In this document: positions 31,692 to 35,926 of the stretch, in pieces
How the letters are laid out: every line of letters begins with the position of its first letter
Numbering within the stretch: the first letter of the stretch is position 1
Assembly: GCA_025358575.1 (NCBI GenBank)
Contig: JANYJA010000061.1
Span: 1 to 35,926, forward strand
From: Terriglobia bacterium
GTDB lineage: Bacteria; Acidobacteriota; Terriglobia; Bryobacterales; Bryobacteraceae
DNA length: 35,926 nt
Direction: 5' to 3'
Program-made: the position numbers and the translations under genes
The notes under the pieces: model-generated
Database searches by the model: none
What the model saw: only the letters and a program-made list of their open reading frames with translations
Told to the model about the DNA's origin: nothing

Positions 31692-32729
31692 CTAACGCTG
31701 CACTCGGCCCGAACCATCGCCCTTCAGAAGCTGATTCACCTCATCCACCGTGAATCGATTGAAATCCCCAGGAATCGAATGCTTCAAACAGCTGGCCGCC
31801 ACCGCAAATTCCAGCGCATCCTTCGCGCTCGGCAGAGCCAGCAAACCATAAATCAGTCCCCCCGCGAAACTATCACCGCCGCCCACGCGGTCCACAATGT
31901 GCGTGATCTCGTAATGCCGGCTCAGATAAAATTCCGTCCGGTCATGCAGACACGCCGACCATCCGTTGTGGCTTGCACTTCGCGATTCCCGCAGCGTAAT
32001 CGCAATCTTCCGCAACTTTGGAAACGCCGCCAGCACCTTCTCCGTTAGCGCGCGGTACTGCTCCGTGTCCAGATGCCCCGAATGCACATCGACGCTTTCC
32101 GTGTGAATCCCCAGCGCCATCTGGCAATCCTCTTCATTGGCGATTACGACGTCCACGTGCTTCACCAATTCGCCCATTACCTCAGCTGCCGTCCGCCCGT
32201 ACTTCCACAGATTTTTCCGGTAATTCAGATCGCATGAGACGGGAACGCCCGCTGCCTGCGCTGCCTTGACGCTCTCGATTGCCAACTCCGCTGCCGACGC
32301 GCTAATCGCCGGAGTGATCCCCGTGATGTGGAACCAGCCCGCACTTTCAAAGATGCTCTTCCAATCGAATGTGCCCGGCTTCGCCAACGCGATTGACGTA
32401 AAGTCGCGATCGTAAACCACCTTGCTCGCGCGCTGATTTGCGCCGGCCTCGACGAAATAAACGCCCATCCGCCCTTGGCCGCGAACGATGTGCGACGTAT
32501 CCACATTAAATCGCCGCAACTCGGCAACCACGGAATCGGCAATCGGATTGTTCGCTGGAAGGGCGGTCGCATAAGTCGCCGGCCATCCCATCGCCGCAAG
32601 CGTTACAGCGACGTTCGCCTCACCGCCGCCAAAAGTCGCCACGAATTGCGGGCTTTGCAGGAAACGTTCATAGCCCGGAGGCGCGAGGCGCAGCATAATC
32701 TCGCCAAAAGTAACTACAGGTTTTCGCAT
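31692..32729 (-). CDS. kdgK: 2-dehydro-3-deoxygluconokinase (PfkB family)
   Basis: A 345-residue ribokinase-family sugar kinase, best read as KDG kinase, which phosphorylates 2-keto-3-deoxygluconate for entry into the lower Entner-Doudoroff route. The N-terminus has [20 protein letters not shown] with the [16 protein letters not shown] substrate motif, then [31 protein letters not shown], and the PfkB signature [15 protein letters not shown] with the catalytic aspartate. The [10 protein letters not shown] and YDRD elements are typical of KdgK rather than fructokinase or ribokinase. It starts 9 bases after the triple-RidA gene. Partner genes such as KDPG aldolase are not in the window. Confidence 0.88.
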
Positions 32730-32738
32730 GGCAACGAC

Positions 32739-33848
32739 TTACTTATTTACCACGGCAACCACGTCGAGAGCGAAGCTCGCATCCACCGACGGGAGTCCCT
32801 CGAAAGGCAACAGTGTGCTTGCCGGAGGCCGCGCCGGATCGAAAAATTCGAACCGGATCTTTCGCACCTGGTCCGCAATGGAAGACGACAGCGGATAGAT
32901 GCTCGCCATCGCCACGTCCTTCGTCGACGAACCCAGCATCTCCAGCTCTTTCTGCAAACGCTGAAACGCCAGGCGCGCATTGTCGTCTTCAAAGCCGAAA
33001 GCCACTTGTGTGCCGGTCAGCGCAATTTTCTGTGCGCCCACCGCGGCCACTTGCGAGTAGGTTGCCGCCGGACCGGCCGCTGGCGGGTTCAAGAATTCAA
33101 CCGGCATCGAAATCGCTCGCGGCAGTCTAGCTACGGCCTCACACTCAACCACGCTCATGGGCGTCGCCCGCTGCGTCTGCACAAAATCGAGCGCGGCATG
33201 TTGGTAAACCGACGAAACCATCGGCGTGATCTCGATCACACGATCCAGCGCGCTCAAGAAACACGTGACGCGTAACACGTCATTCGGAACAGCGCCCGCC
33301 GACGCCAAGGCCGCGCGCAATTTCGTCAACGCCTGCTGTGCCAGCGGAACCGTCGGCTGCAAAGGCTCTGGCACCGACGCCGCCTGCCCCGAGATGAATA
33401 GCAAGCCTTGCGAATTCACATCGCGTTTGGCCAGCGAGATCGATTCCAGCGCCACTTGCGCGCCTTCAACGGGCAACCCTCCGCTCTGCACCACGCTCAC
33501 CGCGGGAAGCGCCATGCGCCTCTCCGTAAAAATTTCGCTCACGATCGCCGGCACCCTTCGCATATCTCCGCTGCCCGCGACAAATGCTCGAATCTTCACG
33601 ATAGGCGACCCGTTGTTCTCCCGCAGCAGGGCGCGGATCGCATCCCGTGTTTGCGCCGAGAGCAGCCCCTTTGACGAAAGTGGTGCTGTGTAGAACATCA
33701 GACGACGCGTTTCCGCGATAACACCAAACGGCGAATCCTTTGGAAGTTCCAGCACCTGCGTGATGTCGTCTTTCTTCTTCCGTGAGAACGGGGTGGCAAC
33801 AATGGCGAGCACCAAAATACCAGCGGCAATCAATCCGGGGATTTTCAT
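32739..33848 (-). CDS. Exported protein with three RidA/YjgF-like domains
   Basis: A 369-residue protein with an N-terminal membrane anchor or signal (MKIPGLIAAGILVLAIVATPF) followed by RKKK, so the body is probably exported. Three consecutive YjgF/RidA-like modules follow. Module 1 is about 45-145, ending in ALPAVSVVQSGGLPVEGAQVALE. Module 2 is about 150-270, with LLFISGQAA, VLRVTCFLSALD and AVARLPRAISMPVEF. Module 3 is about 275-365, with QKIALTGTQVAF and LLPFEGLPSVDASFALDVVAVV. RidA enzymes hydrolyse reactive enamines/imines using an arginine just before the VEVxxLP strand. In all three modules I see Ser, Met/Val or Val there instead of Arg, so deaminase activity is doubtful. The ATG at 33848 is preferred to one three codons earlier. 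It diverges from the PdxR-like gene and precedes kdgK. Confidence 0.82.
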   Translation of the reverse strand: MKIPGLIAAGILVLAIVATPFSRKKKDDITQVLELPKDSPFGVIAETRRLMFYTAPLSSKGLLSAQTRDAIRALLRENNGSPIVKIRAFVAGSGDMRRVPAIVSEIFTERRMALPAVSVVQSGGLPVEGAQVALESISLAKRDVNSQGLLFISGQAASVPEPLQPTVPLAQQALTKLRAALASAGAVPNDVLRVTCFLSALDRVIEITPMVSSVYQHAALDFVQTQRATPMSVVECEAVARLPRAISMPVEFLNPPAAGPAATYSQVAAVGAQKIALTGTQVAFGFEDDNARLAFQRLQKELEMLGSSTKDVAMASIYPLSSSIADQVRKIRFEFFDPARPPASTLLPFEGLPSVDASFALDVVAVVNK

Positions 33849-33950
33849 ATGGGGCATCGTCGAGGGTGTCTGCGATTAGCTTAGCAAGCCGCGACGGAAC
33901 AATAAAAACGGTTGCGTTGGTCAGTCCAATATGGCATGATCGCAACTGAA

Positions 33951-35408
33951 ATGGATCTAAAGCCAAATCTTAATGCACAATCGGAAGTTCCACTTTATAG
34001 GCAGCTTTCCGAACATTTCAAGATATTGATCGATACTGGCCTTGTAGATCGCGGTGAAAGGCTGCCAGCCACTCGTGAATTGGCTGGACAGCTTGGACTC
34101 AATCGGACTACCGTATCCGCCGCATACGAGCTTCTCGAAGAAGAAGGCTACATTTCAGGCCAAGTGGGTCGGGGAAGCTTTGTGACGGGGGGCGGCGGGC
34201 GTGATGCGGGACTGAACTGGGATTCGGTTCTTAGTGCCCCGCAAGTCGCCATGCGACCCTCGGTGGTTCCCGGCCCGCTCATCAGTTTCGCCACGTCCCG
34301 CCCCTCGGAGAAGCTCTTTCCTCTCGATAAATTTCGCGCCAGTTGTGAGGATGTTTTAGGCAGCGCTGATTTGGCGTCCATTTTGCAGCTTGGATCGCCC
34401 GGAGGGTACGAGCCGCTCCGCCAGTATTTGCTCGACGAAGCCCGCACGGAAGGCGTTGCCGGACCTGGTGACGATGTGATGATCACCAACGGATGTCAGC
34501 AGGCGCTCGATTTGATACGACGCGTGCTTGTGCGTCCGGGTGATCGCGTTGGCCTCGAAGATCCGGTATATCCGGGCTTAAAGAATTTATTCCTGCAAGC
34601 CGGCGCGGATTTATGTGGCGTCCCCGTGGGTGCTGAAGGCATCGATCTGGAACGGCTCCAGCGCGTGCGCCCCAAGCTTCTAATGGTTACACCGAATTTC
34701 CAGAATCCCACTGGTGCCACCATTCCTCTGGAATCGCGCAAGTCGATTCTGCGGATGTCGCGCGATTCTGGCACCGTCGTCGTCGAAAACGATATGTATG
34801 GCAGCCTGCGCTATGAAGGAAAAGCGCAGCCCACCCTCAAGGCACTCGACACAACTGGCGACACCATTCTGCTGCGCAGCTTCTCGAAAATTTCCTTTCC
34901 CGGACTTCGGGTCGGCTGGGTCGTTGGCCCGAAGACCTTTATCAGCCGCATGCTCGAAGCCAAGCAGCTAAGCGATTTGCACACCGACCAGTTCTCGCAG
35001 GCCGTGCTGCTCCGGTTTGCGCAATCGGGACGCCTTGAAGCGCACCAGGCGAATATGCTCGTTGCCGGCGCGGAGCGGCTGCTGGCCGTGCGCGCGGCTT
35101 GTGAACTTTACTTGCCGCAAGGCGCGCGGTTTTCTCGGCCGCAGGGCGGCATGAACCTATGGATCACACTTCCCGAACCGCTCGATTCAGCCGACCTTTT
35201 GCCGCGCGCCCAACGCGCCGGGGTCACTTATCTGCCAGGACGTTTTTTCGCAGTATCGGAGCCTCATGCCGGAGGACTGCGGCTTAGCTTCGCAGGCCTC
35301 GATCCTAAACAGATCGAAGAGGGTGTGCGCCTTCTGGGGCATCTGTTTTCCGAAGAACTGGACGCGCATACGGGATTCGACCACCGGCCGGCACCGGCCA
35401 TGGTCTAA
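33951..35408 (+). CDS. pdxR: MocR-type regulator (GntR helix-turn-helix plus aminotransferase fold), probable PdxR
   Basis: About 485 residues. The N-terminal GntR winged helix has PLYRQLSEHFKILIDTGLVDRGERLPATRELAGQLGLNRTTVSAAYELLEEEGYISGQVGRGSFV. From about residue 100 a fold-type-I aminotransferase domain follows, with MITNGCQQALDLIRRVL, TPNFQNPTGATIP, VVENDMYGSLRY and the PLP-binding lysine in SFSKISFPGLRVGWV. Such proteins sense PLP; PdxR members activate the PLP synthase genes pdxST. pdxS lies 33 bases downstream on the same strand, which supports the symbol. In the best-known cases pdxR is divergent from pdxST, so this codirectional layout is notable. The start is uncertain: ATG 33951 is nearest the domain, ATG 33936 and TTG 33912 are possible, and none has a Shine-Dalgarno sequence. 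Confidence 0.88.
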   Translation: MDLKPNLNAQSEVPLYRQLSEHFKILIDTGLVDRGERLPATRELAGQLGLNRTTVSAAYELLEEEGYISGQVGRGSFVTGGGGRDAGLNWDSVLSAPQVAMRPSVVPGPLISFATSRPSEKLFPLDKFRASCEDVLGSADLASILQLGSPGGYEPLRQYLLDEARTEGVAGPGDDVMITNGCQQALDLIRRVLVRPGDRVGLEDPVYPGLKNLFLQAGADLCGVPVGAEGIDLERLQRVRPKLLMVTPNFQNPTGATIPLESRKSILRMSRDSGTVVVENDMYGSLRYEGKAQPTLKALDTTGDTILLRSFSKISFPGLRVGWVVGPKTFISRMLEAKQLSDLHTDQFSQAVLLRFAQSGRLEAHQANMLVAGAERLLAVRAACELYLPQGARFSRPQGGMNLWITLPEPLDSADLLPRAQRAGVTYLPGRFFAVSEPHAGGLRLSFAGLDPKQIEEGVRLLGHLFSEELDAHTGFDHRPAPAMV

Positions 35409-35441: not shown

Positions 35442-35926
35442 ATGTATTTCGACGAGACGTTTCGATTGAAAGTCGGGTTAGCCGAGATGTTGAAGGGCGG
35501 TGTGATCATGGACGTGGTTAATGCCGAACAGGCGATTATCGCCGAACGCGCTGGCGCCACCGCCGTGATGGCGCTCGAGCGGGTGCCTTCGGACATCCGC
35601 AAAGAAGGCGGCGTGGCCCGCATGTCTCCCGTGCGAATTATTCGCGAAATCATGGAAACCGTGAGTATCCCGGTCATGGCGAAAGCACGGATCGGGCATT
35701 TCACCGAAGCGCGAATTCTGGAAGTTCTGGGCGTTGATTATATCGACGAGAGCGAAGTCCTCACGCCCGCCGATGAGGAACACCACATCGCCAAGCGGGA
35801 TTATAAAGTCCCCTTCGTTTGTGGCGCCCGCAATCTGGGCGAGGCCCTTCGCCGCATTGCCGAAGGCGCCGCAATGATCCGGACAAAAGGTGAAGCAGGC
35901 TCCGGCAATATCGTGGAAGCCGTGCG
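35442..35926 (+). CDS. pdxS: Pyridoxal 5'-phosphate synthase subunit PdxS, 5' part
   Basis: The first ~161 residues of the PdxS (YaaD/SNZ) TIM-barrel lyase, which makes PLP from ribose 5-phosphate, glyceraldehyde 3-phosphate and ammonia supplied by PdxT. The sequence is nearly invariant in the family: [37 protein letters not shown], the first catalytic lysine in [24 protein letters not shown] and the second lysine in [11 protein letters not shown]. The frame runs off the right edge. A textbook AAGGAG lies six bases before the ATG. pdxT would be expected next. The ribose 5-phosphate supplied by the rpiB operon in this window is the substrate, although the genes are far apart. Confidence 0.97.

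Follow-up and report, generated by a model that had tools for sequence, protein, structure and literature searches.

The window, a stretch of 35,926 nt from a Terriglobia bacterium of the family Bryobacteraceae (contig JANYJA010000061.1), encodes on its minus strand a protein in which three RidA-fold modules follow one another in a single chain behind a putative signal sequence, and in which every module lacks the catalytic arginine of RidA-type deaminases (Arg105 in E. coli RidA). As a whole, these features are best explained by an exported, Arg105-less, one-chain pseudo-trimer that binds a small anionic molecule, a reading to which we give a probability of about one half. Sequence comparison or structure prediction provides the evidence for the three modules, for the absence of Arg105 and for the retained trimer-holding pairs, the pocket substitutions and two conserved cysteines. 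Neither a triple Rid fusion nor an Arg-less Rid protein is new alone (PMC4433059). What is new here is a predicted exported triple-Rid family that lacks Arg105 throughout, keeps the residue pairs that hold RidA trimers together and carries specific substitutions in its pockets. The family is strongly conserved despite the loss of Arg105 from all three modules of one chain.

The open reading frame spans 32739..33857 on the minus strand, with a preferred ATG start at 33848. The chain begins with a putative signal sequence, continues with a Lys-rich linker and ends in three RidA-fold modules:

32739..33848, minus strand: triple-Rid (3x-Rid) protein, predicted exported, 369 aa (ORF, Pfam PF01042, AlphaFold2)
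33795..33848, minus strand: putative signal sequence MKIPGLIAAGILVLAIVA, residues ~1–18, cleavage site uncertain (hydrophobic segment, 99/101 orthologues)
33765..33782, minus strand: Lys/Arg-rich linker RKKKDD, then a conserved TQ (alignment; at least four Lys/Arg in 86/101)
33423..33737, minus strand: Rid module M1, residues 38–142 (stand-alone model, hhalign to RidA)
33099..33422, minus strand: Rid module M2, residues 143–250 (strongest Pfam/NCBIfam stretch, hhalign)
32742..33098, minus strand: Rid module M3, residues 251–369 (VIA match to 5v4f, hhalign)

Conservation was counted over 101 orthologous sequences with a median pairwise identity of 47%. Many of these were retrieved with peptide patterns containing R97–R98 or the EGLP motif, and conservation at these two motifs is therefore inflated. 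Because the protein is conserved in orthologues at 45–57% identity, we regard it as the product of a real gene under selection.

The sequence-only reading had proposed three fused RidA modules, and this is borne out by profile searches and by structure prediction. Pfam PF01042 (Ribonuc_L-PSP) matches the protein in three stretches (78.9 bits versus a gathering score of 27.3, E = 4.1e-22 for the whole protein), and the modules scored singly in the genome give E-values of 3.7e-8 (M2), 3.9e-5 (M3) and 8.8e-5 (M1). A sequence search of the PDB returned weak Rid matches, to M2 only. The AlphaFold2 model, built with 30 orthologues, has a mean pLDDT of 92.6 and a pTM of 0.88 and shows three copies of the full Rid arrangement of strands and helices. 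A prediction with the Rid fold in one or two modules only was not seen: M1, the weakest module by sequence, is still Rid-like when modelled alone (pLDDT 89.2, pTM 0.82), and the best 50 VIA matches to this model are all Rid/YjgF structures (Z 9.1–11.7). M3 aligns with 5v4f in VIA at Z 9.6 over 120 residues (1.9 Å). AlphaFold2 and VIA/Foldseek agree on a RidA fold for the whole protein and for M1 alone, and the chain has the three Rid domains that define the 3x-Rid architecture. The VIA alignments of single Rid chains span residues 37 to 368, a hint that the N- and C-terminal strands may share one sheet.

The Arabidopsis RidA trimer is held by an invariant K136–E182 pair and by a Ser beside the catalytic Arg (PMC4960622); by alignment, the pair corresponds to Lys73–Glu122 in E. 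coli. The Lys73 equivalents are Lys or Arg in M1 (K85, about 93–94% of orthologues) and in M2 (R193, 92%), the Glu122 equivalents (E135, E237 and D362) are Glu or Asp in 99–100% of sequences in every module, and Ser or Thr occupies the Ser position in 92% of M1 and M3. The trimer residues of a 3x-Rid architecture are present to this extent, with the Lys in M1 and M2 and the Glu throughout; the trimer-holding Lys is missing from M3. The earlier suggestion of a pseudo-trimer gains support from the predicted fold (pTM 0.88), from the retention of most of these Lys–Glu pairs and from a VIA match to the single-chain chorismatase 5ag3 that covers 184 residues, more than a single module; a covalent one-chain assembly is likely.

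The hydrophobic N-terminus had been taken for a membrane anchor. We favor a signal sequence instead: an N-terminal hydrophobic stretch is found in 99 of the 101 orthologues, with a small-residue, cleavage-like motif behind it in 93 and classical A-x-A sites at its end in individual orthologues. The conserved hydrophobic segment and cleavage-like site of a Sec signal are recognized here by a crude hydrophobicity test (mean Kyte–Doolittle value of at least 1.7 over 10 residues), which 6 of 25 control N-termini pass too. Past the hydrophobic region, at least four Lys/Arg residues make up the linker in 86 orthologues. From the N-terminal sequence we infer that the protein is exported across the inner membrane. 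Its mature part contains exactly two cysteines in 85/101 orthologues, and in the window these are:

33261..33263, minus strand: C196, M2 strand 4 (Cys in 101/101)
33141..33143, minus strand: C236, last strand of M2 (Cys in 99/101)

The RidA alignment places C196 and C236 on strands 4 and 6, where their side chains would point to the same face. A C196–C236 disulfide is possible and would suit an extracytoplasmic location.

The position of Arg105 was located by profile alignment (hhalign) with E. coli RidA. M1 and M3 align without gaps at this position, where P-A-R-S of RidA is matched by P-A-V-S in M1 and by P-A-S-T in M3:

33498..33500, minus strand: V117, Arg105 position of M1 (Leu 67, Val 28, Ile 5 and Phe 1 of 101; Arg never)
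33189..33197, minus strand: A218–A219–L220, Arg105 region of M2 (register uncertain by 2; Arg in 0, 1 and 2 of 101)
32817..32819, minus strand: S344, Arg105 position of M3 (Ser 58, Gly 24 and Ala 9 of 101; Arg in 1)

The predicted absence of the catalytic Arg from all modules is confirmed by this alignment and by the 101 orthologues, and none of the three modules of the window protein has the Arg of a RidA-type deaminase. The equivalents of Glu120 are gone from M1 and M3 and are retained in 66/101 M2 sequences (65%). The TIGR00004 model of RidA-type enamine/imine deaminases gives 44.3 bits, against a curated cut-off of 106.25.

Triple Rid fusions, named 3x-RidA (e.g. EF_0115 of Enterococcus faecalis), were described by Niehaus et al. 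in 2015 (PMC4433059) and, like the window protein, have three tandem Rid domains per chain and are presumed to form a covalent trimer unit. Those authors placed 3x-RidA in the RidA subfamily, whereas the family described here is predicted to be exported, lacks Arg105 in every module and falls well short of the RidA-type cut-off. The same study defined the Rid4–Rid7 groups, which lack the essential Arg, carry Trp at position 105 in Rid4 and Rid7 and variable residues otherwise, and keep Glu120, and called the function of Arg105-less Rid proteins mysterious. The window family differs from Rid4–Rid7 in being triple and predicted exported, and it also falls outside these groups in that M1 and M3 have no Glu120 equivalent.

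A useful control comes from the window's own genome, which encodes an apparently exported 3x-RidA–SMP30 fusion of 694 aa (G000:C62; L040:8299-10380, minus strand). This fusion shares a signal-like N-terminus and a triple Rid region with the window protein but has Arg105 in all three modules, reaches 197 bits with TIGR00004 and ends in an SMP-30/gluconolactonase domain. Since this fusion keeps all three arginines, loss of Arg is not a consequence of export or of triplication. A further locus (G000:C62:1009-1332, plus strand; L033) encodes a single-domain RidA with a twin-arginine-like leader (NRRNFLGKG...ASA), and the genome apparently encodes three exported Rid proteins, as judged from their N-termini. 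Our literature search found nothing pertinent on exported RidA or on secreted or SMP-30-linked RidA in Acidobacteria.

The inter-subunit pocket of TdcF is lined by seven fully conserved residues, Tyr17, Gly31, Asn56, Asn88, Arg105, Pro114 and Glu120, among which Asn88 orients Arg105 through two hydrogen bonds (PMC1884159). Several of the corresponding positions of the window family carry Arg:

32862..32864, minus strand: R329, M3 equivalent of pocket Asn88 (Arg in 86/101)
32958..32960, minus strand: R297, M3 equivalent of pocket Asn56 (Arg in 100/101)
33555..33560, minus strand: R97–R98, Arg pair that opens helix 2 of M1 (100/101)

The Asn88 position is also Arg in 85% of M2 sequences; the window's own M2 has Thr208 instead. 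R97–R98 correspond to RidA positions 85 and 86, two to three residues ahead of the Asn88 position, and are invariant also in the 30 sequences that were retrieved without a peptide pattern. The near-invariant polar residues as a group are R87, D95, R97, R98, R227, R297, Y318, E350 and D356. The pockets thus look rewired rather than simply dead, and an Arg from another element may fill the old Arg105 site. These substitutions bear on the proposal that the protein binds a ligand and does not hydrolyse enamines: the loss of Arg105 on which it was built holds, but the pockets have not merely been emptied, given Arg at Asn88 in M2 and M3 and at Asn56 in M3.

In the mechanism that we favor, the protein would cross the inner membrane and adopt, as a single chain, a RidA-like pseudo-trimeric fold. 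The three pockets between its modules, without Arg105 and mostly without Glu120, the residues used for imine hydrolysis, would have been rebuilt with Arg at other pocket-lining positions. They would bind a small anion (carboxylate or phosphate) outside the cytoplasm, perhaps with a non-RidA reaction in addition, while RidA-type enamine deaminase action would not be expected. A more specific version, which we put forward tentatively, is that the carboxylate-binding Arg has moved from position 105 to positions 88 and 56, that asymmetric sites in the envelope bind or convert an anionic metabolite and that the family constitutes a new class of exported pseudo-trimers. If the Arg has indeed moved, this would provide a first concrete handle on the role of Arg-less Rid proteins. 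Residues open to test are R297, R329, R208, R97/R98 and C196–C236, with the Arg-keeping protein of the same genome as a control.

The alternative that survives best, although we consider it clearly the less probable, is that the protein is a new enzyme whose concatenated pseudo-trimer acquired another kind of catalytic site. Precedents are cyanuric acid hydrolase/barbiturase (the Toblerone fold) and the chorismatases, single-chain YjgF/RidA folds with other functions, which are not known to be exported. The best Foldseek matches in the PDB are single-chain enzymes of the cyanuric acid hydrolase/chorismatase type, and the best VIA match is the single-chain chorismatase 5ag3/5a3k (Z 12.7, 184 residues, 2.8 Å), the sole well-fitting structural match broader than one module. 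Cyanuric acid hydrolase itself probably arose by concatenation of YjgF monomers (PMC3758960), and the near-invariant polar residues of the window family exceed the strict needs of a binder. Membership of either enzyme family is nevertheless rejected on sequence despite the Foldseek ranking: a Pfam scan of the window protein found PF01042 and a sub-threshold DUF6456 and no Toblerone or chorismatase family. Neither is a conserved Ser–Lys set seen in each module, and the central barrel retains RidA-like stabilizing pairs in place of an active site.

It is improbable that the protein has remained an imine/enamine deaminase in which an Arg at position 88 or 56 stands in for Arg105. Such an Arg could reach the pocket, as Asn88 touches Arg105 in TdcF (PMC1884159), and Arg is found in 85% of sequences at positions 208 and 329 and in 99% at 297. 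However, M1 and M3 have no Glu120 equivalent and M2 has one in 65% of sequences, position 88 is Thr in the window's M2, and activity has been tied to Arg105 itself in published work (PMC4433059, PMC5619798). We regard RidA-type deamination by the window protein as unlikely.

The surroundings of the gene are a further source of hypotheses, and four features of the window are relevant:

31692..32729, minus strand: PfkB sugar kinase resembling KDG kinases (NCBIfam), 9 nt past the 3x-Rid stop
33912..35408, plus strand: MocR-type regulator PdxR, likely ATG 33951 (NCBIfam PLP_TF_PdxR, 319.7 bits versus a cut-off of 320)
33925..33938, plus strand: motif TCCAATATGGCATG just upstream of pdxR (consensus TCCAATATGGTATG, 31 intergenic regions)
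35445..35926, plus strand: pdxS, for a subunit of PLP synthase, truncated where the window ends (tblastn 81% identity; PdxS family)

Of 80 named loci, 32 (40%) have pdxR as the divergent neighbor. Among the 65 loci with at least 2.5 kb of upstream sequence, divergent pdxR occurs in 26, as do pdxS and pdxT; where sequence reaches, pdxS–pdxT lie behind pdxR, mostly together with a gene for a low-molecular-weight phosphatase. On the other side, a PfkB sugar kinase is the next gene on the same strand in 25/74 named loci, a VWA protein and an S24-peptidase-like protein also recur, and the amino-acid permease gene that comes next in the window is found again in 0/80. The consensus TCCAATATGGTATG is often preceded by ATTGGCTTG upstream of pdxR, and ATTGGCTTG...TCCAATATGGTATG may represent a PdxR operator and promoter of Bryobacteraceae. 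Where the genes adjoin, 3x-Rid and pdxR possibly share an intergenic promoter region.

A role in vitamin B6 homeostasis under PdxR control, for example the binding of PLP or a precursor in the envelope, is suggested by the recurrence of divergent pdxR with pdxS–pdxT behind it, in contrast to the permease, which recurs in none of the 80 loci. We consider this reading doubtful: the TCCAATATGGTATG motif is found upstream of none of the 69 3x-Rid genes without a nearby pdxR, and the recurrence of PfkB kinase, VWA and S24-peptidase-like genes on the other side fits an inherited gene order. As the motif travels with pdxR and is missing from all unlinked copies, we dropped 3x-Rid as a member of a PdxR regulon and interpret the PLP link as one of inherited position. 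What stands of the link drawn from the PLP-sensing neighbor is gene proximity. A functional tie to the PfkB kinase was also considered, as a RidA protein and KdgK lie in one cluster in a chitin-oxidation pathway (PMC9537276), and was set aside as weak: the relevant steps take place in the cytoplasm, and the remaining pathway genes are not seen nearby.

The least probable reading is an envelope protein with a structural or scaffold role and no catalytic activity. It would fit the loss of the catalytic Arg and Glu and predicted export with a Lys-rich linker, but a pure scaffold would have no need of near-invariant Arg at pocket positions, a pattern that counts against decay to an empty scaffold.

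A homologue of the 3x-Rid protein is present in 35 of the 37 searched genomes of Bryobacteraceae, nearly always at full length; the copy in genome G015 aligns as two pieces with a shortened M2. Close homologues were found in Bryobacteraceae only, and named records are from Bryobacteraceae/Solibacteraceae of soil, peat, groundwater and lakes. Single-sequence scans of genome contigs and viral contigs gave no relatives, whereas an alignment query and whole-genome searches did. Across the phylum, sampled evenly with 396 genomes, the matches beyond the family are weak and correspond to a distant family or to a partial chain.

This distant triple-Rid family of other Acidobacteria (alignment A3; L078–L082, L164–L170) is collinear with the window family across all three modules (hhalign probability 99.7, E = 5.7e-26, 24% identity) and patchy across other families of the phylum. 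Its members are ~360–400 aa long and begin with signal, lipobox-like or Tat-like sequences; in the five aligned members, inspected by eye, the Arg105 positions likewise hold no Arg. Unlike the window family, they keep both Glu residues in M2 (IEIE) and Asn at position 88 in M3. The phylogenetic check proposed at the outset thus yields conservation within the family and distant Arg-less relatives elsewhere in the phylum.

Three individual loci deserve mention. At L064:14861-15211 (plus strand), a fragment comprising M3 alone lies ~9 kb away from a full-length copy and resembles a duplicate in decay. At L077:5658-6689 (minus strand), the orthologue next to pdxR–pdxS–pdxT has a shortened M2 and a lipobox-like sequence at its N-terminus. 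Finally, the record L115 (VFZE01000059.1), titled 'Acidimicrobiia bacterium', holds a Bryobacteraceae-type gene; this title was probably assigned in error, as G030, the genome that corresponds to the record, falls in with the window's family.
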